35,215 nt of DNA from a virus. Below the pieces are notes generated by a model that was not told where the DNA came from, did not search any database, and was given only the letters and a program-made list of their open reading frames with translations. The stretch's first letter is position 1; each line of letters begins with the position of its first letter. Made by a program: the position numbers and the translations under genes. Of this stretch, positions 17,266-33,525 are shown one piece after another. The DNA lies in the IMG/VR virus record IMGVR_UViG_3300046820_001656, positions 1 through 35,215 of that record; one strand, 5' to 3'.

Positions 17266-17922
17266 TTATCCTAAATCAGCGGCTTGAACCGTTTCTTTAT
17301 TATAAATGTATATCATAACATTGGATATCTTTTCATCATCATGTAAACCATTTAATATTAAATCATCAACATTTTTTGAATTTTTTGTCAATGATGTATT
17401 TCCAGTCTCTCTAGGACCTCTAGATTTTTTCACTTGTATAGTAAAATCAGAATCTAACATTTTTAACTTTCCGTGAACATCTGCTAAATCTTCAGCTATT
17501 TCTTCATTTGTGTTATATCTAATAGAAACTATATCAACAACAAAAGCTCCAAGTTCAAAGTCACCAGTGTCTTCTATATCATCTGTTCTATCTAATAACG
17601 GTCTAATACAATCCATTATGTCTTCGTGATTAACATTAATGTTAAAAGCTTGTAAGAATGATTCTTGAGAACCATCGTGTATTTCATATTGGAAATAATC
17701 TTTATAATCTTCTTCTACTTGATCAATAAACTGTTCAAGAAGTGATTTTGTTTTATCTGTGAAAACAGCATTTCCCGGACCTTGTACCTTTGATTGAAGA
17801 TTAGATTCAATATGTTCTATTAAAGGTTTGAATATCTCTTCCCAATCAACCGGATTTGTAAGAGGTCCCATTTTACGAATCTCATCTTTGGATTCTAATA
17901 TAAGTTTAGAGAATTTCTTCAT
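17266..17922 (-). CDS. Hypothetical protein with capsid-targeting-type N-terminus
   Basis: This is a 218-residue protein whose N-terminus MKKFSKLILE|S matches the T4 internal-protein capsid-targeting pattern (basic/aromatic start, then [LI]-x-E before a small residue). Cleavage would fall after Glu10. The rest is acidic and alpha/beta (DFELGAFVVDIVSIRYN, then KLKMLDSDFTIQVKK), with no recognised family. It starts 2 bases after the stop of the ferritin-like gene and probably shares that gene's late promoter. It ends at the bidirectional terminator. Confidence 0.6.
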   Translation of the reverse strand: MKKFSKLILESKDEIRKMGPLTNPVDWEEIFKPLIEHIESNLQSKVQGPGNAVFTDKTKSLLEQFIDQVEEDYKDYFQYEIHDGSQESFLQAFNINVNHEDIMDCIRPLLDRTDDIEDTGDFELGAFVVDIVSIRYNTNEEIAEDLADVHGKLKMLDSDFTIQVKKSRGPRETGNTSLTKNSKNVDDLILNGLHDDEKISNVMIYIYNKETVQAADLG

Positions 17923-17924
17923 TA

Positions 17925-18512
17925 TTATCCAAAATATTTATCTTCAAATATCAAAACATCAAGTTTATTTTCGATATTAACTAGTTGAAGAGCATTCAAT
18001 AAATCAGAGTACTCAGCAACTGAATCGTTTTGAATATCAACATACTTTTGTATAAAATTAAAAGTCGCTGGATGAACTCCAAATAAAGATTGTTGATCTT
18101 TAGAATACTTCATAAATAAACCATATTCTAAGTTATAAGCTTTATTGATGATATCAATTAAACTATTGAATGACTGATTAGAAGGAGCTGAAGGAATACT
18201 TGGTATTAAATTCCATTGAGTTAAATAATCTTGTAATCCTTGAGCATGTTCTAATTCACTATTAGCCTCACCTTCAAAAAAAGCTGTTGCTTTTTTATAA
18301 TTAGCGTTTCTACACCAATTAGCAGCATTTCTATAAAAATAATGAGCCGTGTATTCATCACCTATTCTTTCATTAAAGATAGAAACAATATCATCAGTTA
18401 AACTAACTGGGGTTACCAATCCACTCTCAACAACTTGTTCTTTTTGTTCGATTGGTTGTTCTTCATTGAACTCATCGTTTTCTTTTATACGGTTAAATTT
18501 CTTGATATTCAT
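17925..18512 (-). CDS. Ferritin-like iron-storage protein with capsid-targeting-type N-terminus
   Basis: This 195-residue protein has a four-helix ferritin domain (about 38-175) that aligns by eye with bacterial non-haem ferritin FtnA. Visible ferroxidase residues are Glu53 (GDEYTAHYFY), Glu86 and His89 (SELEHAQGL), Glu129 (NLEYGLF) and Gln161 (DIQNDSVAEY). The equivalent of FtnA Glu130 appears to be Ser164. Such proteins oxidise and store Fe(II). Residues 1-37 form an extra acidic N-terminal arm beginning MNIKKFNRIKEN, like the capsid-targeting starts of nearby genes. A perfect late element lies 23 bases upstream. The 218-residue gene follows after 2 bases. A phage ferritin with a possible packaging signal is unusual. 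Confidence 0.8.
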   Translation of the reverse strand: MNIKKFNRIKENDEFNEEQPIEQKEQVVESGLVTPVSLTDDIVSIFNERIGDEYTAHYFYRNAANWCRNANYKKATAFFEGEANSELEHAQGLQDYLTQWNLIPSIPSAPSNQSFNSLIDIINKAYNLEYGLFMKYSKDQQSLFGVHPATFNFIQKYVDIQNDSVAEYSDLLNALQLVNIENKLDVLIFEDKYFG

Positions 18513-18535
18513 AATATTTTTACTATTTTATAGCT

Positions 18536-18546
18536 TATATATTAAA
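18536..18546 (-). promoter_or_regulatory. Candidate late promoter TTTAATATATA
   Basis: Exact 11-mer on the minus strand, 23 bases before the ferritin-like gene, in the 42-base gap after the dehydrogenase gene. It would let the ferritin and 218-residue genes be expressed late and separately from clpP and serA. Confidence 0.55.
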
Positions 18547-18554
18547 AACAAAAA

Positions 18555-19544
18555 TTAATTTACTACCATCTCACCAAATTCTTCAACTATTAGATTAGCA
18601 AGTTCTGTTCCAATTCTATCTTGAGCTTCTGATGTAGCCGCTCCAATGTGTGGAGTTACTGATATTCTTGAATGTGATAACAATTCTTTCATTGGAGTTG
18701 GTTCGTTTTCGTAAACATCTAATGACGCGAATGATACTTTACCACTTTCTAAAGCTTTCAATAAGTCTAATTCATTAATAACACCACCTCTAGCAGTATT
18801 GATAACTCTAACTCCATCTTTCATTAGGTTAAACTCTCTTTCATTGATTACTGAGTTTCCGTTTTCTTGTTTAGGAACGTGAATAGAAATATAATCACAT
18901 AAAGGTAGAATCTCATCTAAGTTAGTTTTAGTTTTGATTTTTATACCCATACTATTTGATACTTTATTACCACTTTGAGCTGTCCAGTTTAAAGTAATTG
19001 GAACGTCTACCATTCTTTCTTCAACATCCATAGCAATAACATCCATTCCGATACCGATTGCGTATTGAGCTAAAGATTGACCAATTCGACCAAATCCAAT
19101 AATACCTAAGGTTTTACCTCTTAGTTCTACACCAGAGCCATATTGTTTTTTAAGTTTATTAAAATCACCAGTCTCCATATTTTTTTGAGAATCTCCTAAA
19201 AATCTAGACATTGAAAACATTTGACCAATAACTAATTCAGCAACTGATTGAGATGAAGAAGCTGGAGTATTGATTACTTTTATTCCTTTTTCTCTAGCAT
19301 AAGAAACATCAATATTATCCATTCCTACACCTCCTCTACCGATTAGTTTTAAGTTAGGACATTGGTCAATAACTTCTTTTCTAACGGTTGTTGCACTTCT
19401 AACAAGAACTATTTCATAATTCTCTTCATTTATTTTGTTGGCTAATTCGGACTGTTCAACTTTTTCAGTAATAACTGTGTAACCAAATTTTTCTAATTCT
19501 AATTTCCCTTCATTGGAAATTCCATCATTTGCTAAAATTTTCAT
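18555..19544 (-). CDS. serA: D-3-phosphoglycerate dehydrogenase-like D-2-hydroxyacid dehydrogenase
   Basis: This 329-residue enzyme is of the D-2-hydroxyacid dehydrogenase family, most like SerA, which oxidises 3-phosphoglycerate with NAD+ in serine synthesis. It has RSATTVR (49-55) and GRGGVGMDNID (69-79) in the substrate domain, the Rossmann motif GFGRIG (150-155), and the catalytic set Arg252 (NTARGG), Glu281 (ENEP) and His299 (TPHIG). It has no C-terminal ACT domain, so feedback inhibition by serine is not expected. About 20 extra residues near 178-207 resemble the form I recall from Bacteroidetes. It follows clpP after 2 bases, so they are probably one transcript. This is likely an auxiliary metabolic gene from a host. 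The exact hydroxyacid substrate is inferred. Confidence 0.85.
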   Translation of the reverse strand: MKILANDGISNEGKLELEKFGYTVITEKVEQSELANKINEENYEIVLVRSATTVRKEVIDQCPNLKLIGRGGVGMDNIDVSYAREKGIKVINTPASSSQSVAELVIGQMFSMSRFLGDSQKNMETGDFNKLKKQYGSGVELRGKTLGIIGFGRIGQSLAQYAIGIGMDVIAMDVEERMVDVPITLNWTAQSGNKVSNSMGIKIKTKTNLDEILPLCDYISIHVPKQENGNSVINEREFNLMKDGVRVINTARGGVINELDLLKALESGKVSFASLDVYENEPTPMKELLSHSRISVTPHIGAATSEAQDRIGTELANLIVEEFGEMVVN

Positions 19545-19546
19545 AT

Positions 19547-20209
19547 TTATTTTCTTTTTATTATGATATCATCTATCATTCCATATTTTTTGGCGTCTGT
19601 TGAAGACATCCAATAATCTCTATCACCATCTTTATAAACTCTATCATAGTTTTGACCAGTTTTTTCAGATATTATCTCATATAATTCTTTTTTAAGATGA
19701 TTCATTTCCCTAGCTTCAATTTCTACATCAGAGGCTTGTTGCATCCAACCACCATAAGTTAAAGGTTGATGTATCATTGTTCTACTTCTTTTAAGAGCTT
19801 TTCTCTTACCTTTAGTTCCTGAACAAAGTATAACAGCGGCCATTGATGCTGCTAAACCAGTATTTACTGTTGATATGTCACATTTAACATAGTCCATAAC
19901 ATCCAATAGCCCTAATCCAGAGTAAACTGAACCACCTGGAGAGTCAATATAGATAGAGATATCTTCATCACTTTCCATATCTAAATACATTAGTTGTGCT
20001 TTTATTACATTACAGATATCAGAGTCTACCTCATCAGATAAAAAGATGATTCTATCATCTAATAGTTTTGAGAATATATCAACAGGCATTCCATTACTTT
20101 CTAGTAGATTTGCTGTTGAACTCTTTTTTTGCATTTTTCTAAAGTAATCATCTTGAAAAGAACTAGTGATAGACTGACTTAGTAGATACTTATTAAAGTC
20201 TTTATTCAT
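19547..20209 (-). CDS. clpP: ClpP-family serine protease
   Basis: This 220-residue protein is close in length and motifs to bacterial ClpP. Ser122 lies in GLAASMAA, His147 in TMIHQPL, and the third residue, an Asp, probably lies in the KDGDRDYW segment (193-200). SIYIDSPGGSVYSGLG (85-100) and the handle region are also typical. ClpP forms a barrel peptidase that works with ClpX/ClpA-type unfoldases. No unfoldase is in the window, so it would use the host's or act alone. Some phages use ClpP-fold enzymes as prohead proteases, so a role in trimming the capsid-targeting peptides of neighbours is an alternative. It heads a minus-strand pair with serA and faces an acidic-protein gene across a 105-base divergent gap. 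Confidence 0.85.
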   Translation of the reverse strand: MNKDFNKYLLSQSITSSFQDDYFRKMQKKSSTANLLESNGMPVDIFSKLLDDRIIFLSDEVDSDICNVIKAQLMYLDMESDEDISIYIDSPGGSVYSGLGLLDVMDYVKCDISTVNTGLAASMAAVILCSGTKGKRKALKRSRTMIHQPLTYGGWMQQASDVEIEAREMNHLKKELYEIISEKTGQNYDRVYKDGDRDYWMSSTDAKKYGMIDDIIIKRK

Positions 20210-20282
20210 ATATAATATTATTTTTATAGTATTTCTATTAAAATACGAGTGAAAAGTTTTTATAATAAAAGTAGTTTTGACT

Positions 20283-20293
20283 TTTAATATATA
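20283..20293 (+). promoter_or_regulatory. Candidate late promoter TTTAATATATA
   Basis: Exact 11-mer, 21 bases before the ATG of the acidic-protein gene, in the divergent gap with clpP. A -7-like TAGTTTTG (20,272-20,279) lies just upstream but has no TTTG partner at the right distance. Confidence 0.5.
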
Positions 20294-20314
20294 CAGAAAA
20301 ATAAAAATAAAACT

Positions 20315-20617
20315 ATGGTAACTAAAGTTGAAATAAACGGATACGAAATCACTATCGAAGAATTAGAAGGTGTGATATCTGTAAAAGCTGAAAAAGACGA
20401 AGAAATCATCGAAGAGTTCACAATCGAAACTGAAGAAGGTGAAGAAGGTGAAGATGTTAAAGGATTCGGTGAATTCGGAGACGAAGAAGAAGATTTTGGT
20501 GGTGAAGAATCTCAAGATGACCTTGAAGATGAGCTACAAGATGAAGAAGAAGAGGATGAAGATGATAGCGAAAGACCTGCATTAGAGTCATTTCAGTCTT
20601 TTATCAATAAAAAATAA
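20315..20617 (+). CDS. Highly acidic small protein, possible scaffold or core protein
   Basis: This 100-residue protein has a short beta-rich start (MVTKVEINGYEITIEELEG) followed by a long Glu/Asp/Gly run (residues 44-87) and a basic end, FQSFINKK. It is about half acidic residues. The composition resembles small acidic prohead-core proteins of T4-like phages (gp67 type), but no homology can be shown by eye. It has its own late element, and the CTS-bearing HAD gene follows after 10 bases. DNA mimicry is another possibility for so acidic a protein. Confidence 0.6.
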   Translation: MVTKVEINGYEITIEELEGVISVKAEKDEEIIEEFTIETEEGEEGEDVKGFGEFGDEEEDFGGEESQDDLEDELQDEEEEDEDDSERPALESFQSFINKK

Positions 20618-20627
20618 TTAATTCACG

Positions 20628-21701
20628 ATGATTAAAAAGTTTAATCATTTTATTTCAGAGAGTAAAGACTCTGATTATTTATTATATTATGCCTTTGATT
20701 GGGATGATAATATCTTAAATATGCCTACTAAGATTCATATGGAACATTTAGTAGACGGTGAGTGGATACCAACATCGGTATCTACTGCAGAGTTTGCTGA
20801 CTACAGAAACGATAAAGAAAATTGGAGAGTTGACTATAATGTTGCCTTTGTTGATTTTAGAGATCAAGGAGAAAGAGGTGATAAAGCATTTTTAGAAGAT
20901 ACTAAAACTGCCATTTCACAAGGTAAACTTGGACCAGCATGGAATGACTTTATTGAGTGTTTATCAAATGGTTCAATATTTGCTATTATAACCGCTCGTG
21001 GTCACGAGGCTCCTGCTATGAGAATGGGTGTTGAGTGGATAATAGACAATATTCTAACTGAAGATCAATTATACCAAATGTATAATCAATTAATGAAATA
21101 TTCTTATTTCTTTGGTGATACTAATGTTGAAAATGAAAGAATATTAAGAGGTCAACCATCAAAGAATCCATTGATTAGTTCATATTTAGATAACTGTGAA
21201 TATGTTGGTGTTTCTTCTCCATCAAGAGGTGGCTCACCAGCTAATCCAGAAAAAGCTAAAGAAGATGCTCTTTTAGCCTTCAATGCTAAAGTAAATGATT
21301 ACGCAAAAAATGTTGGCATCTCCGCTAAAATTGGATTCTCAGATGATGATTTGGGAAATGTTAAACACATAGAAGATTTAATTGATAATTTACGAAATGA
21401 ACAATTTCCAAATATTGTAGAGTTTGTAGTTAAAGGAACTAAAGATCCAGAAAACATAACTAAGAAAGTTTTAAGTAGAGAAGAGCCGGTTACGGAAACA
21501 TCTCAACAAACACCTGGATTAGAATCATCAGTTCTTCCGTTTACACAGTTTAACAATATGACTAATAAACTTTACCCAAGTGGTCCATTAAACAGACAAG
21601 ATGATTTCGCTAATCAATTTAGAAGACAAGTTGATTATCTATCTAAGAACTCAAAAGAAATGAGAAAAGAAATTAAGAAAAATAAAAAATCCTCTAAATA
21701 A
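20628..21701 (+). CDS. HAD-superfamily phosphatase-like protein with capsid-targeting-type N-terminus
   Basis: This 357-residue protein starts MIKKFNHFISE|S, a close match to the T4 internal-protein targeting signal. The remainder has HAD motifs: motif I DWDDN (Asp24 and Asp26 in AFDWDDNIL), motif II Thr122 in AIITARGHE, a Lys in 209-221 for motif III, and motif IV GFSDDDLGNVKHI (236-248). The large insertion (40-110) between motifs I and II would be a cap. The last 80 residues are a linker ending in a basic tail (KKNKKSSK). HAD enzymes hydrolyse phosphate esters, often on nucleotides; the substrate here is unknown. It shares a transcript with the acidic protein and ends in an intrinsic terminator that overlaps its stop codon. 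Confidence 0.7.
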   Translation: MIKKFNHFISESKDSDYLLYYAFDWDDNILNMPTKIHMEHLVDGEWIPTSVSTAEFADYRNDKENWRVDYNVAFVDFRDQGERGDKAFLEDTKTAISQGKLGPAWNDFIECLSNGSIFAIITARGHEAPAMRMGVEWIIDNILTEDQLYQMYNQLMKYSYFFGDTNVENERILRGQPSKNPLISSYLDNCEYVGVSSPSRGGSPANPEKAKEDALLAFNAKVNDYAKNVGISAKIGFSDDDLGNVKHIEDLIDNLRNEQFPNIVEFVVKGTKDPENITKKVLSREEPVTETSQQTPGLESSVLPFTQFNNMTNKLYPSGPLNRQDDFANQFRRQVDYLSKNSKEMRKEIKKNKKSSK

Positions 21702-21711
21702 GAGGATTTTT
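21685..21711 (+). terminator. Intrinsic terminator overlapping a stop codon
   Basis: A perfect 11-bp stem, aaaaatcctct (21,685-21,695) with agaggattttt (21,701-21,711), has a 5-base loop, AAATA. The TAA stop of the HAD gene (21,699-21,701) sits in the loop and first stem base, so a terminating ribosome would cover the hairpin. Confidence 0.85.
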
Positions 21712-21728
21712 TATTTTAAATCTATTTA

Positions 21729-21739
21729 TTTAATATATA
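21729..21739 (+). promoter_or_regulatory. Candidate late promoter TTTAATATATA, 4 bases from ATG
   Basis: Exact 11-mer ending 4 bases before the ATG at 21,744. If it works like a T4 late -10 element, transcription would start at or inside the start codon, giving a leaderless message. Confidence 0.5.
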
Positions 21740-21743
21740 CCAT

Positions 21744-23579
21744 ATGAGATTTTTATCAAACTATTTAGATTTTATTTTTGAATCTGTTGCTAAACAAAAA
21801 ATGAGACTTTACTTCTCTGAGGATTTCAGAAATATATTAAGAAGAATTCAAGATAAATCGATTATCGCCCAAGCTCTTTTAGCATCAGAAGACTCAAATC
21901 AAATGACTGATATTTACACTTTAATTGATATCACGGAAAAGAATGATACTATTTCATTAATACAGGTAAATAGAATAGCAAGAGCTAATCCAGAGTTAGG
22001 TGAAACGTTACCTTATAATATTCGTGATAAAAAAAGAGGAAGTGAATTCTGGACCAAATCTAGAACTGATATAAGTATTGGTAGATGGACCAGAAGAATA
22101 TTCACAGAGGTTTATAAATCAACTATGACAGATTCTAAAATTGAAGAGTTTGTTAACTTATATAAATCATCTATTGATGGTGATGATCTTACTAATTTTG
22201 AAATGGTTAAAGGAGAAGATATTAGAAAATGGTATCATGAGAATACTTATCTAGAAAGAAGAGGCCAGTTGGGTAATTCCTGTATGAGATATCCTAAATG
22301 TCAAGAATATTTAGATATTTATGTCAAGAATCCTGAAGTTTGTCAATTACTTATATTAAAATCAGTAGATAAACCGGATAAAATTACAGGAAGGGCATTA
22401 GTTTGGAAACTAACAGATGATGAGTATTATATGGATAGAGTATATACTATAAATGACTCTGATAAATTACTATTTCAAGATTATGCTAGAGTTAATAAAA
22501 TTAAAAATTTATATGATCGTAGTTCTGATTCTTGGTTAGAAGTTAAATTAGGAGACCACAATTATGAGAAGTATCCTTATATGGATACATTTGTAGTTTA
22601 TAATACGGCAACCAAGATTTTAAGAGATAATGAAGAATTGTGGCCTAATCAAGGTTATATCAGTCTTCAACACACAGATGGTAGCTTCGATCCGGAAGAT
22701 GCTGTTTACTCAAATTGGGATGATGAGTACATAAGAAGAGAGAATGGTGTATATTGTTCCAATGTGGATGATTGGTTGCTTAGAAGCTCTGCTAGATATT
22801 TAGAGTATAAAGAAGAGTGGGCTGCTCCAAATGATGATATTGTTTATTCTGAATATCATGATGAATGGTTTTATGATAAAGATGTTGTTTACTCACAAGT
22901 TATGAATGATGTATTATATCCAGATAATGAAAATGTTATAGAAATAATAATAAACTCCAATGGTGATAATGATTGGTGTATTAAATCAAGACAAGATTTA
23001 TATATCAAAGTAGGTAATGATTATTATTCTAAAAAGGAGTGTATAAAAGATCCATTTACCAATGAATATAAATTCAAAGATAAAGCTTATCAAAAATCAT
23101 TAGATGAAAAACTAATGAAAGAATTTGGAATTGAGATAAATGAGGAAACTTATAAAATTGGTCAACCAACTAGAAAGACTGTAAACATGGTAAAAGAAGA
23201 ATTAGAATCAAAACTACTTAAATTGAAACTATCGGACAAAATTAAAGATCTAATTAGTCAAAATGAGAAGTATAAAAAGATTTTAAATAAGTATAAAAGC
23301 TATCAACAATCAGTTTTACCAACTGAAGAGGATATATTTATATTATTAAAATCATATCTATCAGATAGTGGTTTAAGCTACAAATTTACTTGGAGAATTG
23401 TAGGTACTTTACAAGGTAAATTTTTATTCTACGGTGGTGATAGAGATATAACTGAAAAAAGATTCGATGAGTTTAGAATGTTAGGAATACTAGAAGAAAT
23501 GATAGATGTTTGTGCTTCTTTTGATCTTAGTGAATTTCCAGAAGATATTTATAAAAGATATGTATTCTTGAGTTTTTAA
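21744..23579 (+). CDS. Large hypothetical phage protein with capsid-targeting-type N-terminus
   Basis: This is a 611-residue protein. The N-terminus MRFLSNYLDFIFE|S fits the targeting pattern, with possible cleavage after Glu13. Residues about 165-240 hold a conserved-looking block, GQLGNSCMRYPKCQEYLDIY, then NPEVCQLLIL and TGRALVWKL. I recall a block like it in other large-phage hypothetical proteins, possibly related to PcfJ-like proteins. Residues 310-380 contain repeated Trp/Tyr/Asp-rich units (VYSNWDDEYIRRENGVYCS, then IVYSEYHDEWFYDKDVVYS), each about 17-25 residues, like small beta hairpins. The C-terminal 130 residues are helical and charged. Function unknown. It has its own promoter between a terminator and the ATG, and its stop overlaps the convergent methyltransferase gene by 4 bases. 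Confidence 0.65.
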   Translation: MRFLSNYLDFIFESVAKQKMRLYFSEDFRNILRRIQDKSIIAQALLASEDSNQMTDIYTLIDITEKNDTISLIQVNRIARANPELGETLPYNIRDKKRGSEFWTKSRTDISIGRWTRRIFTEVYKSTMTDSKIEEFVNLYKSSIDGDDLTNFEMVKGEDIRKWYHENTYLERRGQLGNSCMRYPKCQEYLDIYVKNPEVCQLLILKSVDKPDKITGRALVWKLTDDEYYMDRVYTINDSDKLLFQDYARVNKIKNLYDRSSDSWLEVKLGDHNYEKYPYMDTFVVYNTATKILRDNEELWPNQGYISLQHTDGSFDPEDAVYSNWDDEYIRRENGVYCSNVDDWLLRSSARYLEYKEEWAAPNDDIVYSEYHDEWFYDKDVVYSQVMNDVLYPDNENVIEIIINSNGDNDWCIKSRQDLYIKVGNDYYSKKECIKDPFTNEYKFKDKAYQKSLDEKLMKEFGIEINEETYKIGQPTRKTVNMVKEELESKLLKLKLSDKIKDLISQNEKYKKILNKYKSYQQSVLPTEEDIFILLKSYLSDSGLSYKFTWRIVGTLQGKFLFYGGDRDITEKRFDEFRMLGILEEMIDVCASFDLSEFPEDIYKRYVFLSF

Positions 23580-24184
23580 ATTTTCTTAAAAACTACAATA
23601 TCATCTAATTCAATTTTTTGTAATCCTTCTATTTCAGTAAGAACTCCGTGTAATCCAAGCCCGGCATTTTTATTCTCAACCAAAATAGAACCAACCGAAA
23701 CCTCGGATACAATCTTATTATAAAGTTCTTTTAACTTTTCAACAGTTTGAAAAGGAGTGTAAGTATAAATGATATTGTATTTAGAATAGTTTTGATTCAT
23801 TATATCATCATGAATCACGTTAAGATTTCCTTCCCAGTATTTAATTAACTTATTGTTTAAGTATTCTAAATAAAGTTCTTGCTTTTCAATTCCAGTAAAT
23901 GTGAAAGTTTTACCATCTTCAAATAATTTTGACTGTGTGTAGATATCAAAAAGTGCTGTACCTAAACCAATACCACAATCACAGATGTGATTTTCTTCTT
24001 TAAGAAGATTTCTTTCATCTAATCTTTGTAGAAGGAATATATTTTGTTCTATATTTGAGAGAATATAGTGCCATTCACTAGCCTCAATAAATTCTTTTTT
24101 ACTACCATCAAATTCTGTCCATAAACCTCTTGATTCATGAAAATAGGCAACTAACTCTGGATTTGGATCTACTTCTTGTAACAT
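23576..24184 (-). CDS. Class I SAM-dependent methyltransferase-like protein
   Basis: This 202-residue protein has a Rossmann methyltransferase core. Motif I is HICDCGIGLGTALFDI (66-81). An acidic residue ends strand 2 (TGIEKQELY, Glu100). A DD pair (126-127) in VIHDDIM precedes a motif IV-like YTYTPF (140-145). The last looks like a variant of the N/D-P-P-[YF] motif of nucleic-acid methylases with the first Pro replaced by Thr, so the substrate is uncertain: protein, small molecule or nucleic acid. Residues 1-60 are helical. It stands alone on the minus strand, 30 bases downstream of a small-protein pair, with no late element. Confidence 0.6.
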   Translation of the reverse strand: MLQEVDPNPELVAYFHESRGLWTEFDGSKKEFIEASEWHYILSNIEQNIFLLQRLDERNLLKEENHICDCGIGLGTALFDIYTQSKLFEDGKTFTFTGIEKQELYLEYLNNKLIKYWEGNLNVIHDDIMNQNYSKYNIIYTYTPFQTVEKLKELYNKIVSEVSVGSILVENKNAGLGLHGVLTEIEGLQKIELDDIVVFKKI

Positions 24185-24214
24185 ATTATTTATATTACAA
24201 AAAAATGAAGATGT

Positions 24215-26556: not shown

Positions 26557-26565
26557 TATATATTG
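26557..26565 (-). promoter_or_regulatory. Variant late element CAATATATA
   Basis: Minus-strand CAATATATA 16 bases before the HNH gene; one mismatch to the recurrent TAATATATA core. Confidence 0.25.
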
Positions 26566-26619
26566 ACAAATATCTCTTTCCTAAATTGATATATATTTTA
26601 TAAAAAATAATTAATCACT

Positions 26620-26955
26620 ATGGCAAACGAAAAAAAGACGGTAACTACAGAACCTACAAAAAAGAAATGGTTCACAAGAGTTACAGACAAAGTAAAGTGG
26701 TTCTTCAGTGAATTACTAGCTATGTATAGCGGTAAACCTTCTTACTTTTCAAAGAAAAGAATTGAGTCTGGAGTAGCATTTATTATTGCACAATGGGGTA
26801 TGATTTTCTTTCTTTTAGAGAAGCATTCTACATTATCTATGGGGGAGTTCCTTCTATGGGCAGCAGCTGAGTTCGCAGTTTCTGGTTATATCATTAACAA
26901 GATACAACAAGAAAAGAAAACAGAATCTACAGAATCTGAAACTCCGGTTGAATAA
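26620..26955 (+). CDS. Small two-helix membrane protein, holin candidate
   Basis: This 111-residue protein has a charged N-terminal half, then two hydrophobic segments: about residues 50-66 (GVAFIIAQWGMIFFLL) and 73-92 (MGEFLLWAAAEFAVSGYII), joined by a short turn, and a charged C-terminal tail (KIQQEKKTESTESETPVE). Size, two helices and a charged end fit class II holins, which open the inner membrane at lysis. No endolysin gene adjoins it, so this is only a candidate; a membrane-anchored virion or takeover protein is equally possible. It ends at a strong bidirectional terminator shared with the next gene. Confidence 0.55.
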   Translation: MANEKKTVTTEPTKKKWFTRVTDKVKWFFSELLAMYSGKPSYFSKKRIESGVAFIIAQWGMIFFLLEKHSTLSMGEFLLWAAAEFAVSGYIINKIQQEKKTESTESETPVE

Positions 26956-26973
26956 TCAAACTTATTTAAAACT

Positions 26974-26999
26974 AAAAACCCACTCTAGAGTGGGTTTTT
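26974..26999. terminator. Bidirectional terminator, perfect 26-base palindrome
   Basis: Left half aaaaacccactct (26,974-26,986) is the exact complement of agagtgggttttt (26,987-26,999). T-runs flank it on both strands. It separates the convergent membrane-protein (+) and 185-residue (-) genes. The stem core equals that at 17,238-17,260. Confidence 0.85.
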
Positions 27000-27557
27000 T
27001 TATTTCTTAAATTTCTTTAGTCTTGTTTTTCTGTAACTTTTAGATTCAAAAGCATCATCGCCGTCTTCAAATTCGTCTTCATCGATATCATCTAAACTAA
27101 CTCTCCTTTCTCCTTCTATTTCTCCAGTCATTTCATTTTCTTCTTCTGGTGTAATTTTAGGTTCTTCGTTAGATCCTTCTAAATAGTTAAGAACATCTTC
27201 AACTGTATCAAATTTCTTTTTATCAACGTGGAATTTCTCAGTTTCTGAATAAAAGTTTACTTTTTTACCATTGTAATTAATAGAACCATCCTCATCAATA
27301 TCAGTTCCTAACTCTCTTGATAAATCATTCATCATTTTTTTACCAATGTATTCACCACCCTCTTCTTCACCTTCTTCATATTTAGCTAATGGTGCATCTT
27401 CTTCAGATGGTATAGTTGTTGGAACAACACCTGGTCTAGACGGTCTAGTATCTGGAGTTGTTGTTGGAGGAGCAGTAACCGGTTTAGTTTCTGGATCTGC
27501 CATTGTAAAATCTTCATTTACTTTACCTTTAACAAATTGATTATATCTTTTAATCAT
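27000..27557 (-). CDS. Acidic hypothetical protein with capsid-targeting-like N-terminus
   Basis: This is a 185-residue protein. It begins MIKRYNQFVKGKVNED, similar to the targeting starts of neighbouring genes though with a longer gap before the Glu. A Pro/Thr linker (26-50) follows, then an acidic middle with a small folded part (YIGKKMMNDLSRELG, then INYNGKKVNFYSE). It has a very acidic stretch near the end and a basic tail, SYRKTRLKKFKK. A perfect late element lies 20 bases upstream. No family is recognised; composition fits an internal or core protein of the head. Confidence 0.6.
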   Translation of the reverse strand: MIKRYNQFVKGKVNEDFTMADPETKPVTAPPTTTPDTRPSRPGVVPTTIPSEEDAPLAKYEEGEEEGGEYIGKKMMNDLSRELGTDIDEDGSINYNGKKVNFYSETEKFHVDKKKFDTVEDVLNYLEGSNEEPKITPEEENEMTGEIEGERRVSLDDIDEDEFEDGDDAFESKSYRKTRLKKFKK

Positions 27558-27577
27558 TTTTTCTATTTAATTTTTAG

Positions 27578-27588
27578 TATATATTAAA
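27578..27588 (-). promoter_or_regulatory. Candidate late promoter TTTAATATATA
   Basis: Exact 11-mer on the minus strand, 20 bases before the 185-residue gene. Confidence 0.5.
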
Positions 27589-27597
27589 TTTCTATAT

Positions 27598-28110
27598 TTA
27601 ATTTTTTTCTTCTAATTCAGAAACAACATAATCTATAAATGAGTCTAATTCATACTCCAATCCATTACAAAATTCAAATACGTCATAGTGTTCATGTGAT
27701 TTAGGATCTTTTTCAACTGAGTAAAAATCTGGAGAAGTAGAACCATTTTTATAAACAACTATTCGACCTTCTAATCTGCCTTCTATTTTTCTACCATTTG
27801 GCCATTCTAAATCTGGTACATAAAGTGTTCCTATATAATGTACTTCATCGCCATAATCTTCTGTTTCTGTATGTTCAAATTTGAAATAACCTTTATCATC
27901 TTCAAATACTGTTTCAGATTCTTCTTTTGCTAATTTATCGTGTAATTCTTCTTCATTTCCTATTTTATGAGAATCTAGAAAATCTTTTTCTAACTGCGTA
28001 AGCGATTTGATTCCATATTTAGATATTTTATCTAAAATGTCATCTACTCTTTCCATAGATGTATAACCTTCATATCTCATTAAATGTTTCATAGGTTTTA
28101 CTAGTTTCAT
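27598..28110 (-). CDS. Hypothetical protein, last gene of a three-gene operon
   Basis: This 170-residue acidic protein has an N-terminal MKLVKPMKHLMRYEGY; from Met7 the start MKHLMRYE|G resembles the short targeting starts such as MKYLKTFE|S. Residues 20-50 (VDDILDKISKYGIKSLTQLE) form a helical motif that I recall at the ends of some Bacteroidetes proteins ('ILDKI...G..SLT..E..FL'). The remainder is beta-rich. The ATG overlaps the upstream stop as TAATG, which favours the first Met and shows translational coupling. Function unknown. Confidence 0.6.
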   Translation of the reverse strand: MKLVKPMKHLMRYEGYTSMERVDDILDKISKYGIKSLTQLEKDFLDSHKIGNEEELHDKLAKEESETVFEDDKGYFKFEHTETEDYGDEVHYIGTLYVPDLEWPNGRKIEGRLEGRIVVYKNGSTSPDFYSVEKDPKSHEHYDVFEFCNGLEYELDSFIDYVVSELEEKN

Positions 28111-28490
28111 TAAGATATATATTTAGTTTGATTATTTGATATTTTCCATGCGCCTCTTGAAATTCCAGCGATTGGTGTCCACGGTTGGTCGGGAAATTGA
28201 CTTTTTTCTAATTTACTTCTTATTGTTTCATAAACAACATCTATTCCAACTCCTTCTGTTTGATAAATGCTTATATAATTATTCTCTAGTGTGTCCCATT
28301 TGAACTCATTGAATTCAACATTTTCAACTAATGATTCTAATTTTAATTCTCTGTTATAACTTCTTACTTCTTTAACCCAATTTTCAATAAAACAGAAAAT
28401 AAATCCATCTGATCCATCTTTGGGATGTTTAATTAGTTTATCGAAGTCTACACCGTTATAAAATTTAACTTTAGTGTGTTCATATTCCAT
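28110..28490 (-). CDS. Hypothetical protein, middle gene of a three-gene operon
   Basis: This 126-residue protein has no recognised family. A longer reading from 28,523 exists but would run back through the upstream stop region and begin with an unnatural MMIYLMILIDS. The ATG at 28,490 (MEYEHTKVKFYNG) lies 4 bases after the stop of the 76-residue gene and is preferred. It is mixed alpha/beta, ending GISRGAWKISNNQTKYIS. Its stop overlaps the next start (TAATG). Confidence 0.6.
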   Translation of the reverse strand: MEYEHTKVKFYNGVDFDKLIKHPKDGSDGFIFCFIENWVKEVRSYNRELKLESLVENVEFNEFKWDTLENNYISIYQTEGVGIDVVYETIRSKLEKSQFPDQPWTPIAGISRGAWKISNNQTKYIS

Positions 28491-28494
28491 AGAA

Positions 28495-28725
28495 TCAATC
28501 AATATCATCAAATATATCATCAATTTTTTGGTCTCTTATCTCAGAGGTATGTAGTTTTATAATTCTATTGGAAAAAAGTTCATCATTCTCATACTTAAAC
28601 TTAAAGTCTTCAAATGAATCATTACTAATTTTCAATAAAGAGAATGATCCTTTTGATATCTTTCCCTCGTTTAATCTACTTTCTAAATAAGTTAGATAAT
28701 ATGGATAAATTGTGTCATTTTTCAT
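28495..28725 (-). CDS. Small hypothetical protein ending in RDQKIDDI
   Basis: This 76-residue protein opens MKNDTIYPYYLTYLESRL and ends IRDQKIDDIFDDID. The terminal motif and the underlying 23 bases are identical to those of the 119-residue protein at 24,215-24,574. No family is recognised. It is the first gene of a tightly packed set of three on the minus strand and is divergent from the PD-(D/E)xK gene across 33 bases. Confidence 0.6.
   Translation of the reverse strand: MKNDTIYPYYLTYLESRLNEGKISKGSFSLLKISNDSFEDFKFKYENDELFSNRIIKLHTSEIRDQKIDDIFDDID
28514..28536. repeat. 23-base repeat encoding RDQKIDDI (copy B)
   Basis: Identical to 24,231-24,253; see that entry. Confidence 0.85.
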
Positions 28726-28741
28726 ATTTTATATATCCACT

Positions 28742-28752
28742 TTTAATATATA
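28742..28752 (+). promoter_or_regulatory. Candidate late promoter TTTAATATATA, 6 bases from ATG
   Basis: Exact 11-mer ending 6 bases before the ATG at 28,759; predicts a leaderless or nearly leaderless message. Confidence 0.5.
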
Positions 28753-28758
28753 CCTAAT

Positions 28759-29598
28759 ATGAAAAAATACTCAGACTTAATATCAGAAGCTGCTAATAGA
28801 ACCCTTAGTAGAAATAGATTTGTTCCTCGTGTTGGAATGTTGAGAAACTTTTTAATTTATAATTGTGGTATGTATGATGCTATTAATAAATTAATTGCGG
28901 ATAACTCTACTCTTAAAAACTATAATACAGATTACCAAAAACCTCTTTCCTATTTATTCCAAACTGGAAAATACACAGACATAAAAGACAATGGTGGAGT
29001 TTATTATACTGATAAACTAAATAATTTAAGTAGAGTATTGGATAATAAAGGAGATTGGGATCCTGTTAATAAACTAAATACAAACTCATTTGACCAAGCT
29101 GATTTATTATATGACTTATATAATAAGATTGGTGTTTATGATGAAGTTGGTGCAATACAAAATGATATTCAGTTAAAAAAGTGGATATTAGATTTTAGTA
29201 AGAATAATAATCTTTATGATTTAATAAGAAAAAATTTAAATTTCAAGGAATATACTTATTGGAACAGAAGAAACTCACTTACTGGTGAGATAGCTGAGAA
29301 TCAAGTTAGGGAAATGTTAGTTGATAAAGGATGTACTATACTATATCAAGGTGGCGACGGTGACTTTATTGATATGATATATGGAACAGATTTAATCGTT
29401 ACTAAAGGTGGTAAAATCTACACTGTCCAAGTTAAAAGTAAAGAAGACGCCGCTAAAAAAGCTTTAGACGGTAGTGGATATGCTAACATAGATTGGTTTT
29501 GTTCACCAATGGATGGTGGTTCAATTAAAATATTCACTTCTAAACAAAGTGATGGTAAAATTGTTTCTAAAGATATTCCAACTCCACCAGCTGTTTAA
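28759..29598 (+). CDS. PD-(D/E)xK nuclease-like protein with capsid-targeting-type N-terminus
   Basis: This 279-residue protein starts MKKYSDLISE|A, an excellent match to the T4 internal-protein signal. Residues 30-165 are a helical domain of unknown type. Residues about 174-260 have the look of a PD-(D/E)xK restriction-type fold: a helix with Glu177/Glu180 (TGEIAENQVREML), Asp211 in GTDLIV, and the QxK strand YTVQVKSK (Gln224, Lys226). This arrangement, with Gln replacing Glu, is seen in Holliday-junction and repair nucleases. If packaged and injected, it could attack host DNA or serve phage DNA processing. It has its own late element and its stop overlaps the polymerase gene's stop by 4 bases. 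Confidence 0.65.
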   Translation: MKKYSDLISEAANRTLSRNRFVPRVGMLRNFLIYNCGMYDAINKLIADNSTLKNYNTDYQKPLSYLFQTGKYTDIKDNGGVYYTDKLNNLSRVLDNKGDWDPVNKLNTNSFDQADLLYDLYNKIGVYDEVGAIQNDIQLKKWILDFSKNNNLYDLIRKNLNFKEYTYWNRRNSLTGEIAENQVREMLVDKGCTILYQGGDGDFIDMIYGTDLIVTKGGKIYTVQVKSKEDAAKKALDGSGYANIDWFCSPMDGGSIKIFTSKQSDGKIVSKDIPTPPAV

Positions 29599-31022
29599 AA
29601 ACCTCCTTTACCACCAAAGATATCCATCACAACTGATAATCTTTTAGTAACAGTTGGCATTCCTAATGGTTCAATAATTGAGTTAATAGGTGATAAGATA
29701 GATTTCTCAAACTGTGTATCATAATCGATTTCAGGTGCGAACTCATGTGGATAAGAACCACGAGTATATGCAAACATATCAGTTATTGACTTATCTTTAC
29801 AACAGTAATATTTAATCTTAACTCCGGATTTAATAAACTCATACTTTTGTTGCATATCTTTATCTTTTGCTAAAAGATAATTATGATGAGCTGCTGACTT
29901 AACAGCGAAGTGAGCACCACTTACAAATTGTAAAGGTAAAGATTTATCATTTAGAACCTTAGTATCATAGTTAGAAACTGATGATTGCATACAAATATCA
30001 TCAATATCAGCCAATTCAAACTCTTTTCTTAATCCTTTAACTAACTTCAATAAGTCTTTAATATTGAAAGTATCTGGATGTGAGAAAAGATATTTAACAA
30101 TACCAACAATCTTATCTCTCGCAAATGCTGGAGTAGAAGAGCGAACAAGTTCAACACCTTTAGGGAATATGTATTTCATTCTATCATATGGAATACCATC
30201 TTCAAATAATATATGTTGAATGTATTTCTTTTTAGCTATATTTATAATTGATTCTGATATTCTTTCTAACTCAAAATCTTCTCTGTTTTCAACTCCGAAA
30301 GAACCAGCATATTCTTCTAAACATTTTTTGAAATATCCAGCGTATCTATAATGGTCCATTCCTTGAATAAAGTCAATCTCATTTGACCAATTCCATCTTA
30401 TTTCAGATGTTATTGAACCAGAATCTATTATCTTGTTTAATCCTCTATCTTTAACATAGAAACCGTCTATTATTACTAATTCATAATCTTCTTTTAGAAG
30501 TTCTGTGAACTCATCAATAGAGTGAGCAACTCCTAAACAATTTGAATTATTATATCTTAGTTTCTCTTTAGAAAGTATAATGAATTTTTCATCGATGTTA
30601 TTTAGATAATCTTCGTTGAATATTAAGTCTTGCCAATCACAATGATCAATCGCTGGCTTGAATGATACAAATAATGAGTCGGTATCCGCATAGATACTAA
30701 CTTGTTCGTTTTTATTTAGAGGAGTGACATTTTTTATTGAAAGTGTTGAATGTAAAGCAAAGTCATTTTGCCATTGGTTATACCAATAGTCTTCATTAAC
30801 TTTATCCATTGTTTTTGTTAAATCACGACCTTGTGCTGTAATTGTACCGGCAACGTGATTGTTATATAAAATGAAATAAGAAGTTGCAAAGGCACCATAA
30901 GAACCATTAAGAACCAATTTAAGAGCGAGTTGTAGAGCATTGTAGTAATCAACCTCTTTTTTAATTTCAACGTTTTTCTTTTTAAGTTCTTCTATTTTCT
31001 TTATTCTTTCCTCTTTTGTCAT
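29595..31022 (-). CDS. Family B DNA polymerase, C-terminal half (split gp43)
   Basis: This 475-residue protein corresponds to the fingers, palm and thumb part of a T4 gp43-type polymerase. Motif B is KLVLNGSYG (35-43; usually K...NSxYG). Motif C is YADTDS at 111-116, with Asp113 and Asp115. The end VVMDIFGGKGGF resembles the clamp-binding tail of gp43. The exonuclease domain and motif A (DxxSLYP) are absent here and from the two genes upstream, so the N-terminal half must be encoded elsewhere. The ORF starts MTKEERIKKIEELKKK, in the fingers helix, and its ATG overlaps the upstream stop (ATGA), so it is a genuine start rather than a frameshift scar. Split gp43 genes are known in some T4-like Aeromonas phages. 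Confidence 0.85.
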   Translation of the reverse strand: MTKEERIKKIEELKKKNVEIKKEVDYYNALQLALKLVLNGSYGAFATSYFILYNNHVAGTITAQGRDLTKTMDKVNEDYWYNQWQNDFALHSTLSIKNVTPLNKNEQVSIYADTDSLFVSFKPAIDHCDWQDLIFNEDYLNNIDEKFIILSKEKLRYNNSNCLGVAHSIDEFTELLKEDYELVIIDGFYVKDRGLNKIIDSGSITSEIRWNWSNEIDFIQGMDHYRYAGYFKKCLEEYAGSFGVENREDFELERISESIINIAKKKYIQHILFEDGIPYDRMKYIFPKGVELVRSSTPAFARDKIVGIVKYLFSHPDTFNIKDLLKLVKGLRKEFELADIDDICMQSSVSNYDTKVLNDKSLPLQFVSGAHFAVKSAAHHNYLLAKDKDMQQKYEFIKSGVKIKYYCCKDKSITDMFAYTRGSYPHEFAPEIDYDTQFEKSILSPINSIIEPLGMPTVTKRLSVVMDIFGGKGGF

Positions 31023-31375
31023 AATGTATCTTTTTCGATTTTTATTATATCTAGAACCTCAGGATCGGTATATGGCGATATGACTTTAATCACTTTAGTT
31101 GTATCCGGTGCAGTTCTTTTAATTTTAACAGGGACTTGTTCTTTTACAATAGCTTCTTCTTTGGGTTTTGATAAAGAATCTACTTGATATCTTAACCTAG
31201 ATATCTCTGATTCTTTCTCTACTATATCATGTTCTAACATTTCTTTATCGGTTTCCAAATAGCTAGTATCATTATATTTTTTAATTAACCAAAGGCTAAG
31301 TATAAAAATAATTAAAGCCGCTAGATTTAATCTCTTACGATATTTTTGTATTCTTTTTTTATCTATTCCTATCAT
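31019..31375 (-). CDS. Single-pass membrane protein with coiled coil (spanin-like layout)
   Basis: This 118-residue protein from Met at 31,375 lies 10 bases after the clamp stop. A longer reading from 31,411 overlaps the clamp gene by 26 bases and is less likely. A basic N-terminus (DKKRIQKYRKRLN) precedes one membrane helix (LAALIIFILSLWLI, about residues 18-31). A coiled coil follows (DKEMLEHDIVEKESEISRLR), then a Pro/Lys region. N-in single-pass topology with a periplasmic coiled coil resembles inner-membrane spanins, but its place between clamp and polymerase, coupled to the latter by ATGA, leaves the role open. Confidence 0.6.
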   Translation of the reverse strand: MIGIDKKRIQKYRKRLNLAALIIFILSLWLIKKYNDTSYLETDKEMLEHDIVEKESEISRLRYQVDSLSKPKEEAIVKEQVPVKIKRTAPDTTKVIKVISPYTDPEVLDIIKIEKDTL

Positions 31376-31385
31376 ATTTTTTGTT

Positions 31386-32162
31386 TTAATCGTCTGAAAA
31401 ATCTTGTTCAAATGATAACATCAAGTTGGAGTTATCGTCTTTAATTAACATAAATGTATCAAATATGTTAAATTCTATCTTATCTACTTTGTCGTTTATA
31501 CAACTTAAAAACTTCTTGTTAAGAATAAGATTAGAGTTTCTTTCTTCTTCTAATTTATCAATTTCTAATTCCCAAGCTGATTTCTCGGACAAAGTAACCA
31601 ATCCTTTAACAACACTAATACTAATGATTCTATCGGCGTTTATATTAGATAGTTTTTTAACATCTAAGAAGTCACTATTTGATATTGAGAAAAACCATTT
31701 TCTGTTTTTCAAATCTAATCTTTGTTTAAGTGAGTTTTTATCAATGTCTCTCATCTCATAGTGTTCTCCACCTAACCAAGTAACTTTGAATTTACCTGAT
31801 GAAATCTGCATTGCTCTAGCCCAATAAAGTTCTTCATCATCTGGTGACTCTTTATAAGTAACATCTAAAGTAATTTTATCTTGGTCTTTTAAGAATGCTA
31901 AGTTTTTAACAAACTTCTTAGAGTTAGGAATGATAATATCTAATTTATAGTCAAAGTCTTCAACATCAAATACATCTTTTGTATTCATTAAGAAGTTCTT
32001 GAATGCTAAAAGAACATTACCACCTAACATAGAGTACATAAGTATATGTTGGTTATCAATTTTAAGTTTGATTGTATCATCGATTGATGATAACTCATCT
32101 AATCTTGATATAAAGGTTTCAAAGTTCTCACCTTTAATCTTAAATTTTAATTTATTTGCCAT
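31386..32162 (-). CDS. Sliding clamp (T4 gp45-like)
   Basis: This 258-residue protein begins MANKLKFKIKGENFETFI and consists of regular alternating strands and short helices like gp45/PCNA clamps (T4 gp45: 228 residues). Typical pieces are TIKLKIDNQHILMYSMLGG, LDIIIPNSKKFVKNL and the C-terminal KIEFNIFDTFMLIKDD. Clamps tether the polymerase and in T4 also activate late transcription. It leads a minus-strand operon with a small membrane protein and the C-terminal polymerase half, consistent with joint use. No late element or clear host promoter is seen in the 74-base upstream gap. Confidence 0.75.
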   Translation of the reverse strand: MANKLKFKIKGENFETFISRLDELSSIDDTIKLKIDNQHILMYSMLGGNVLLAFKNFLMNTKDVFDVEDFDYKLDIIIPNSKKFVKNLAFLKDQDKITLDVTYKESPDDEELYWARAMQISSGKFKVTWLGGEHYEMRDIDKNSLKQRLDLKNRKWFFSISNSDFLDVKKLSNINADRIISISVVKGLVTLSEKSAWELEIDKLEEERNSNLILNKKFLSCINDKVDKIEFNIFDTFMLIKDDNSNLMLSFEQDFSDD

Positions 32163-32221
32163 TTCGGATTTACACGTTTATTACATGATATATTGTAAAA
32201 TACCAATTTTGTTTATTTGAT

Positions 32222-32232
32222 TTTAATATATA
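32222..32232 (+). promoter_or_regulatory. Candidate late promoter TTTAATATATA, 4 bases from ATG
   Basis: Exact 11-mer ending 4 bases before the ATG at 32,237; third case of near-leaderless spacing, again before a gene with a targeting-type N-terminus. Confidence 0.5.
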
Positions 32233-32236
32233 AGTC

Positions 32237-32806
32237 ATGATTAAAAAATGGAATGAATTTATTAGAGAGTTTGTTGAGGATAATGCCAATAGCGTAGTTG
32301 ATGCTAAAATGGAAGAACTCAGAGACTTAATAAATGGAGTAACCGATGGTCAAAATATCATCTACGAATGGGAAAATAAAAATGACCACCAACTTTCTAT
32401 CAATTTTTCAGCGAATGGTTTAGATATTAAATATGAATTTGATATAGATGATTTACACGTTACTAAGGTAGCCGGTGAAACTATTGATTTTCAAACAGAT
32501 GTGGAATCTATTGATGAAGGATTAGATATTATAGAGAAAGATATTTATTCTATTTTAGGTATATCTGAGGCGAGAAAGGGAAGACCAAAAGCTCAAAGAT
32601 ACAAAGGTCGTAAAATACCTGGTAAATATTTGACTAAAAATCCAAGTCAGATGAAAAAAGAAATTGACACATTCAGAGGTAAAAAAGAGTATAAAAAGGA
32701 TTGGGATGCTGATTATAAATCTGGTAAAGGTGGTGAAGGTAAAAGAGTTAAAACTAAAAAATCTGCTGCTACAAAAGCCTACCAAAGAATGTTTGGTGAT
32801 AAATAA
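32237..32806 (+). CDS. Basic hypothetical protein with capsid-targeting-type N-terminus
   Basis: This is a 189-residue protein. MIKKWNEFIRE|F fits the targeting pattern up to the Glu, though Phe follows rather than a small residue. Residues 12-105 are acidic alpha/beta. Residues 112-189 are strongly basic (KGRPKAQRYKGRKIPGKYL, then KGGEGKRVKTKKSAATKAY) and probably bind DNA or RNA. The segment SAATKAYQRMFG looks like a conserved phage C-terminal module. The next gene, also with a targeting-type start, follows after 17 bases, so the two share the late promoter. Confidence 0.6.
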   Translation: MIKKWNEFIREFVEDNANSVVDAKMEELRDLINGVTDGQNIIYEWENKNDHQLSINFSANGLDIKYEFDIDDLHVTKVAGETIDFQTDVESIDEGLDIIEKDIYSILGISEARKGRPKAQRYKGRKIPGKYLTKNPSQMKKEIDTFRGKKEYKKDWDADYKSGKGGEGKRVKTKKSAATKAYQRMFGDK

Positions 32807-32823
32807 AATAATAAAATAAAAAT

Positions 32824-33525
32824 ATGAAATACTTAAAAACATTTGAATCATACACTTTTGAAGATTTCACACATGCTGATATGGAAGATGTGAAAGACTT
32901 ATTAGAAGAAGGTCTAACAGCTGAACAAATCGCTATTGAATTAGATTTTAGTTTAGATAAAGTCAATCAGATAATTTCTTCTTTAAGTAAAAATGAAGGT
33001 TTTGAATCTGAAAATAAAATTTATATTCCATCTCATTATACTGGTGTAATAATGGAACTTGGCGGTGAAGAAGTTGATCCAAACGATATTATCTCATTAT
33101 ATAATGAAATAGTTGAAGAGGGAACTCCATTAGTTAGTTACTCTGAGTATGGAACTGAAGGAAAATTCTATAATGAAGATGATGATGAGATACCTACAGA
33201 TGCTATTCTTGATGAATTGAATTATGCTATTGGTTTAGATGGTGGTGAGTTAGAAGGTTTAGATGAATCTAAAAAATCTGGAGTAAGTGCTTCATTAAAA
33301 AAGAAGTCTCAAGCTTCTGGAATTCCTATGGGTATTTTAAGAAAAGTATTTTCTAAAGGAATGCAAGCTTGGAATGCTGGTCACCGACCTGGTGTAGCTC
33401 AACATCAATGGGGAATGGGTAGAGTAAACTCATTTATCACTGGTGCTGGTGGTGCTAGAAAAGCTGATGCTGATTTATGGGCTAAAGCAAAAGCCGCAAA
33501 GGCAAGAAAAAAGAAAAAGAAATAA
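32824..33525 (+). CDS. Hypothetical protein: targeting-type N-terminus, helix-turn-helix, conserved phage C-terminal domain
   Basis: This 233-residue protein starts MKYLKTFE|S. Residues 20-55 (MEDVKDLLEEGLTAEQIAIE, then LDFSLDKVNQIISSL) read as a helix-turn-helix. The middle is acidic. Residues about 150-225 hold a conserved-looking domain, GILRKVFSKGMQAWNAGHRP, QHQWGMGRVNSFI and GGARKADADLW, which I recall from other large phages (similar, from memory, to a domain of unknown function such as DUF5824). It ends AKARKKKKK. It follows the 189-residue gene and ends at a strong terminator. Confidence 0.65.
   Translation: MKYLKTFESYTFEDFTHADMEDVKDLLEEGLTAEQIAIELDFSLDKVNQIISSLSKNEGFESENKIYIPSHYTGVIMELGGEEVDPNDIISLYNEIVEEGTPLVSYSEYGTEGKFYNEDDDEIPTDAILDELNYAIGLDGGELEGLDESKKSGVSASLKKKSQASGIPMGILRKVFSKGMQAWNAGHRPGVAQHQWGMGRVNSFITGAGGARKADADLWAKAKAAKARKKKKK

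Follow-up and report, generated by a model that had tools for sequence, protein, structure and literature searches.

What leads proteins with unrelated bodies to share the same kind of short N-terminus? The question is raised by a 35,215-base virus record (IMGVR_UViG_3300046820_001656), a genome fragment referred to here as the window, in which nine genes between positions 17,266 and 33,525 encode such proteins, and the original prediction attributed their first residues to a capsid-targeting sequence (CTS) like that of phage T4. Having followed this N-terminus, or tag, through relatives of the window, we consider it likely from sequence comparison that the tag is a genome-wide removable capsid-targeting sequence like the T4 CTS and that it mimics one repeat of the phage scaffold.

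Tagged proteins in the window and its relatives

The UvsW-like helicase of the window is 82 to 83% identical to those of LR756502 (642 kb) and LR745206 (634 kb), both complete genomes of uncultured phages, and the next-closest UvsW-like helicases are encoded in relatives of 636, 735, and 462 kb. We infer that the window is a piece of a Mahaphage-type genome, a clade for which Bacteroidetes are the predicted hosts (PMC7162821). The relatives analyzed were LR745206 (W01), LR756504 (W03), and LR756501 (W04), all covered whole, LR756502 (W02), covered up to base 640,000, and LR756500 (W05), covered over 140 kb; genome-wide tag counts were made for W01 to W04. Open reading frames (ORFs) were called mechanically (the longest ATG ORF, at least 70 aa), and the tag counts are therefore approximate.

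Tags were counted under one fixed union definition, with internal Met and residue shuffles from the same genomes as controls. In the window, 8 of 35 ORFs were tagged, compared with 0.7 expected from internal Met (p = 2 × 10−7) and 0.8 from residue shuffles, none of 300 of which attained 8. Tagged proteins numbered 153 of 853 in W01 (14.8 expected), 182 of 866 in W02 (17.4 expected), 91 of 825 in W03 (17.9 expected), and 107 of 884 in W04 (20.1 expected), equivalent to 11 to 21% of genes and an excess of 73 to 165 per genome, and the count of none of these genomes was attained in 300 residue shuffles. Thus, the tagged family is real, but the eight or nine members first proposed are far too few, as each of these four genomes has 91 to 182. 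When bodies were clustered by blastp with the first 22 residues removed, they fell into 141 (W01), 161 (W02), 81 (W03), and 86 (W04) clusters, and the eight scored window proteins into eight separate ones; the bodies are unrelated. The control phages crAss001 (3 of 98; 1.0 expected) and MaF61 (4 of 178; 3.2 expected) showed no significant excess, and a profile search detected no S77 protease in either. T4 yielded 9 of 220 under the union definition (4.4 expected), and a stricter pattern recovered its IPII and IPIII.

Two main classes of tag were recognized, class A (MKYLKxYKxFE↓S, MKHLKxYNE↓S, and MKYLKTFE↓S, the arrow marking the putative cut) and class B (MIKKYxxFIxE↓S). When M[KR][YHFW][LI] was the sole criterion, 253 proteins were selected; their first Glu stood at residue 8, 9, or 11 in 196, with controls flat, and the residue following it was S, N, A, D, E, or G in 200 of 243, Ser being the commonest (92), then Asn or Ala. 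When viral contigs were scanned independently with a DNA pattern that left the next residue unspecified, 81 N-terminal and 0 internal instances emerged, with Ser next in 51 and Asn in 14 and with bodies in 35 clusters. The helical moment of the first 11 residues of tagged proteins exceeded that of their own shuffles; the tags are amphipathic. At 10 to 45 kb of W02 there are dense arrays of small tagged proteins, many of which have an acidic module like DIxDILxDLxDDGF behind the tag.

Protease, scaffold repeats, and capsid protein

The original prediction had suggested looking for a gp21-like protease in the rest of the genome; none is encoded in the 35-kb window, and all five relatives gave an S77 match. 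The S77 (PF03420) score was above the curated cutoff for W05 and below it for W01 to W04 (E = 1 × 10−4 to 4 × 10−6), and the W02 protease also matched the head maturation protease phrog_207 (E = 6 × 10−28). These proteins are ~630 to 810 aa long, with the protease motifs in the N-terminal part, where the catalytic-type motifs GE[FL]DHP and SSRAAG are invariant (GELNHP and SSRGLG in T4). As with T4 gp21 (Peptidase_S77), which has the same GExxHP and SSR motifs, the W01 gene sits between the portal gene (phrog_213) and the Gp23 capsid gene (PF07068; E = 1.8 × 10−26). Whereas the gp21 protease and gp22 scaffold of T4 are separate proteins, the protease here is fused with a scaffold-like region in which a 14-residue unit (YSEYIAE↓NLDKNI) is repeated in tandem. 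All 80 viral loci have 11 to 14 repeats per protease-scaffold with a main spacing of 14, and, in a search whose pattern already specified residue classes at P7, P4, P3, and P1, P7 was Tyr in 91%, P4 Tyr in 96%, P3 Leu, Ile, or Val, and P1 Glu, followed mostly by Asn or His.

The scaffold repeat is in register with the class B tag (Y-N-Q-F-I-N-E↓S; YxxFIxE↓S) and with M-K-T-Y-Q-E-F-I-A-E↓A of T4. According to T4 genetics, CTS residues 4 and 7 serve in targeting and residues 8 and 10 in processing, the rule being L/I-X-E (PMC9026906), and the positions common to the tag, the scaffold repeat, and the T4 CTS are exactly T4 residues 4, 7, 8, and 10. In the Gp23-type capsid protein, the putative maturation site INE↓N is invariant (66 of 66 readable loci) and ends as common tags do.

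Comparison with known systems

The CTSs of T4 IPI, IPII, and IPIII (Mullaney and Black 1996; PMC9026906, PMC9958956) resemble the tags in that they consist of ~10 N-terminal residues on unrelated mature proteins of a phage that encodes an S77 protease, and they resemble part of the tags in having aromatics at the targeting positions and an I/L-x-E↓small site. The internal proteins number three in T4 and are reported to reach at least 10 across related phages (PMC12373910), against the excess of 73 to 165 per genome found here, and the two interchangeable tag classes are also unlike T4. In the giant phages phiKZ and SPN3US, prohead proteolysis by a relative of gp21 likewise occurs after Glu in many head proteins, some of which are injected (PMC10052503, PMC9026906), with the motifs S/A-x-E or A-x-E as opposed to I/L-x-E; the phiKZ protease was not detected with the PF03420 profile.

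In the cultured Sphingomonas phage PAU, 16 of 274 proteins open with MK[TS][LI]xxL[FY]E, a pattern found at 0 of 1223 internal Met; its tag has a different wording and far fewer bearers than in the Mahaphage-type relatives. Many of the PAU tagged proteins cluster near protease gp151, flanking the head genes, and GenBank notes, whose basis is unstated, give "internal capsid protein" for gp142 and gp154 and "scaffolding" for the tagged gp152. By N-terminal sequencing, the PAU capsid protein sheds ~65 residues (PMC5646251); an LME↓N lies at residue 64 of this protein, within one residue of the mapped cut.

Constraint, swap, and detachment of tags

Among W01-W02 orthologs tagged in both genomes, identity is 57% over residues 2 to 12 and 47% over the 30 that follow, versus 50% and 53%, respectively, in untagged pairs (p = 7 × 10−5 for the contrast). 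Synonymous codons at the tag positions Leu4, Ser, and Glu are ordinary, and conservation of the tag at the mRNA level was rejected on this ground. Tags also change class on recognizable orthologs, as in MIIKKYIKFINE↓EFDHL versus MKYLRTYE↓GFDHL (84% identical proteins) and MKYILSKKIFE↓N versus MIIKRYNEFVFE↓N (60% identical), and the window protein at 32824 opens with MKYLKTFE↓SYTFEDF where its W02 ortholog has MNFGTFVNE↓SYDFEDF, a different tag with the same junction. The RNA ligases of W03 and W04 begin at the ligase domain, while those of W01 and W02 bear a tag ahead of it. As judged from sequence, the tags are constrained as amino acids, swappable, and detachable.

Upstream motif

The motif AATATATA/TAATATAT lies within 50 bases upstream of 49 of 70 (W01), 58 of 79 (W02), and 30 of 55 (W03) leaders of tagged units, compared with 71 of 318, 77 of 318, and 63 of 424 untagged leaders, respectively. 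In the window, TTTAATATATA occurs at 9 sites versus 0.6 expected, six of which precede tagged units and three of which precede tail-region genes (503, 5253, and 7773). Those ahead of tagged units are at 20283-20293 (before the 20315-20628 unit), 21729-21739 (before 21744), 28742-28752 (before 28759), and 32222-32232 (before the 32237-32824 unit) on the plus strand and at 18536-18546 (before the 17925-17266 unit) and 27578-27588 (before 27000) on the minus strand; the plus-strand site at 469-479 precedes the tail-region genes from 503 on. The motif was not seen in the window before UvsW, ClpP, the primase-like gene, DNA polymerase, or NAMPT. In W01, strict matches lie ahead of the portal and protease genes and near matches ahead of the capsid and sheath genes. 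We read the motif as a probable late-type promoter. The T4 late promoter TATAAATA was tried as a candidate and showed no clear enrichment before tagged genes, a different motif being enriched. The sites at 21729, 28742, and 32222 end just 4 to 6 bases before the ATG, and in W01 and W02 the spacing is bimodal, which suggests leaderless mRNAs for many tagged genes.

The nine tagged proteins of the window

All nine N-termini were recovered where the original prediction had placed them. It had counted four that fit the T4 rule; [LI]-x-E in fact ends six of the nine (17266, 17925, 20628, 21744, 28759, and 32237), five of which have Ser, Ala, or Asn next, and the four are the subset with Ser or Ala next. 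Seven conform to [LIV]-x-E, the misfits being 32824 (KTFE↓S) and 27598 (MRYE↓G). Five of the nine match a fuller T4-like pattern, [YFW]xx[FYWLIM][ILV]xE, which takes in the T4 Tyr4/Phe7 targeting positions; the aromatics of class A are placed differently.

On the minus strand, a unit is led by a 195-aa ferritin-like protein (17925-18512; tag MNIKKFNRIKE↓N at 18480-18512), which matches Ferritin (PF00210; E = 1.3 × 10−16) from residue 46 onward. Its family occurs in more than 80 viral contigs with highly variable N-termini; no match was obtained in the named phage collection, and a bacterial relative was looked for and not found. The second gene of the unit (17266-17922) encodes a 218-aa protein without a match in Pfam or PHROG searches, whose tag MKKFSKLILE↓S (17893-17922) ends in ILE↓S and fits [LI]xE. 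Also on this strand are a 185-aa acidic protein (27000-27557; tag MIKRYNQFVKGKVNE↓D at 27513-27557), with tagged orthologs in W01 (MIKKYNQFVNDRINE↓D) and W02 (MAIIKKYNQYIKKINE↓D), and a DUF6576 protein (27598-28092; PF20216, E = 6 × 10−8) with the tag MKHLMRYE↓G at 28069-28092. The true start of the latter is Met7 of the 27598-28110 ORF, as had been proposed, because the W02 ortholog begins exactly with MKHLMRYEGY.

On the plus strand, a 357-aa protein with a DWDDN motif, which is HAD-like (20628-21701), has the tag MIKKFNHFISE↓S (20628-20660), kept in the W01 and W02 orthologs and in most of 19 viral loci, while the W03 ortholog begins at the domain. Residues 1 to 14 have a predicted local distance difference test score of <50 in the structure model, and a HAD fold was not confirmed, no significant fold match being obtained. 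Its unit is led by an acidic 100-aa protein (20315-20617, plus strand) whose C-terminus, LESFQSFINK(K), resembles the tag core and is kept in W01 and W02; this may be a C-terminal core-binding motif, tag-like at the opposite end, and genome-wide enrichment of a C-terminal version of the tag was not found. The 611-aa protein at 21744-23579 (plus strand; tag MRFLSNYLDFIFE↓S at 21744-21782) belongs to a multicopy megaphage family, for which iterated profile search yielded 48 members, tagged and untagged alike, across the window and W01 to W04; several members lie directly upstream of the W04 head genes, and viral contigs contained one relative of the 21744 protein.

The remaining three are also on the plus strand. 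A possible PD-(D/E)XK nuclease of 279 aa (28759-29598; weak matches to PF11645 and phrog_5018) has the tag MKKYSDLISE↓A (28759-28788), whose end, ISE↓A, obeys the T4 rule. The 189-aa protein at 32237-32806 (tag MIKKWNEFIRE↓F at 32237-32269) has tagged orthologs in W01 (MIKKWNQFIREF) and W02 (MIKKWGDFIREF) and a second possible site, GISE↓A, at residues 109 and 110, followed by a basic tail; its N- and C-terminal halves have separate matches in viral contigs, and the protein may therefore be cut twice. The last is a 233-aa DUF5824 protein (32824-33525; PF19141, E = 1 × 10−12) with the tag MKYLKTFE↓S at 32824-32847. Untagged genes of the window include those for NAMPT (33561-34991), a 2-hydroxyacid dehydrogenase (18555-19544), and a ClpP-type protease (19547-20209), and the DNA polymerase B at 29595-31022 is a 475-aa ORF whose match is limited to a portion of the family and which may be a split polymerase.

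Predicted functions of tagged proteins

The tagged sets of W01 and W02 match methyltransferase, 2′-5′ RNA ligase/Acb1, T4-type RNA ligase, and CCA/poly(A) polymerase families, as well as SMODS-associated NUDIX, PPK2, lysozyme, M15 peptidase, ankyrin, and, weakly, DHH; the W02 match exceeds the Acb1 profile cutoff. From these matches, counter-defense (Acb1-like anti-CBASS) or RNA-repair roles are plausible for several tagged proteins. T4 IPI to IPIII inhibit type IV restriction enzymes once injected (PMC12373910).

Discussion

The capsid-targeting reading of the original prediction is supported computationally by the genome-wide enrichment, the S77 protease, the Gp23 capsid protein and its INE↓N site, the in-register repeats, the tag swaps, the upstream motif, and PAU. 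In the mechanism that we propose, an amphipathic tag (aromatic-x-x-aromatic/Leu-[ILV]-x-Glu) would imitate one repeat unit of the protease-scaffold during prohead assembly and so dock unrelated proteins onto the inner core. Once activated, the fused S77 protease would cut behind one and the same Glu in the scaffold repeats, in the Gp23-type capsid protein, and in the tags, releasing the cargo inside the head, and the released proteins would enter the host with the DNA, where counter-defense and repair enzymes could act before phage gene expression. Core binding, cargo cleavage, packaging, and ejection are steps that we infer.

Several observations weigh against this reading. About one-third of the tagged proteins have no clear xxE↓small site in residues 6 to 22, and class A includes many tags, of the KYNE↓S and TFE↓S types, that fall outside [LI]xE. 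A position-specific scoring matrix made from the scaffold repeat alone scored N-termini ~2- to 7-fold above internal segments (higher cutoffs, whole genomes), the structure model of the protease-scaffold was of low confidence (predicted template modeling score, 0.21), showing only a long helix in the repeats, and a PDB sequence search with this protein gave no match. The ferritin tag at 17925 is not kept in its family, whose viral-contig members are mostly untagged or begin at the ferritin domain, and this protein was rejected as proof of tag conservation. The upstream motif is lineage limited (7 of 80 in other tag-bearing phages) and could be a translation signal. Cargo packaging and cleavage are predicted from sequence. 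The tags belong to the T4-CTS family only provisionally, given that some of them depart from the strict rule and that this family is defined by experiments.

Among the alternatives, the proteins that tags lead to the prohead core might be components of the scaffold or inner body, for the most part digested or else retained, and not cargo delivered to the host. In T4, gp22, gp67, and gp68 are core proteins that the prohead protease itself degrades within the core (PMC9958956), many of the tagged proteins are small, with no role assigned, and PAU gp152 is the protein noted as scaffolding. We regard this explanation as unlikely, since enzymes without an obvious role in assembly are tagged (Acb1/LigT, RNA ligase, CCA-adding enzyme, DHH, PPK2, methyltransferases, and ferritin), and the 141 to 161 unrelated bodies per genome are far above a scaffold inventory. 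That the tag is an address unrelated to the capsid (a phage compartment, a membrane, or a host partner) would accommodate the tags that misfit the T4 cleavage rule, but it seems very improbable given the register with the scaffold repeats and the T4 CTS, the Glu/small-residue site, the protease, and the capsid INE↓N site; crAss001 and MaF61, with no S77 protease detected, lack a significant tag excess, and import into the phage nucleus is reported to be independent of terminal signals (PMC13282480).

Descent from a single large family of paralogs whose bodies have eroded has in its favor the common acidic module behind some MKYLK-type tags and the 48 members of the 21744 family; we give it very little credence, since 153 tagged proteins of W01 and 182 of W02 form nearly as many clusters, recognizable bodies come from different families, and orthologs bear a tag of another class or none. 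Finally, a start-codon effect, in which N-termini come to resemble each other through AT-rich, Lys-rich starts or through an element in the mRNA, in genomes of 26 to 32% GC whose common AT-rich motif is often a few bases ahead of the start codon, is scarcely credible, as chance and AT bias were rejected by the internal-Met and shuffle controls, codons at Leu4, Ser, and Glu are ordinary, and the Glu position and the next residue are constrained.

Returning to the tag as a removable capsid-targeting sequence, what is new here is its scale, the swappable classes, and the mimicry of a scaffold repeat; no description of such tagging in huge phages was found in the searchable literature, with preprints and subscription journals mostly outside it. 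A 2023 review called the mechanism of T4-type targeting still "mysterious" (PMC9958956), and the scaffold-repeat match offers a direct, testable answer, which also hints at portable tags for loading very large capsids. On balance, we lean toward the broader view that giant Bacteroidota phages have a genome-wide protein-loading system in which the protease-scaffold repeat is also the docking code, ~100 genes per genome, acquired enzymes among them, carry a detachable copy of it, and the head is a programmable vessel that delivers a large arsenal of counter-defense, RNA-repair, and metabolic proteins at infection. Roles are known for a minority of the genes of huge phages; should the tag prove to be a packaging label, ~100 virion proteins per genome could be nominated from their sequences alone as effectors of the first minutes of infection, a rich source of counter-defense proteins.

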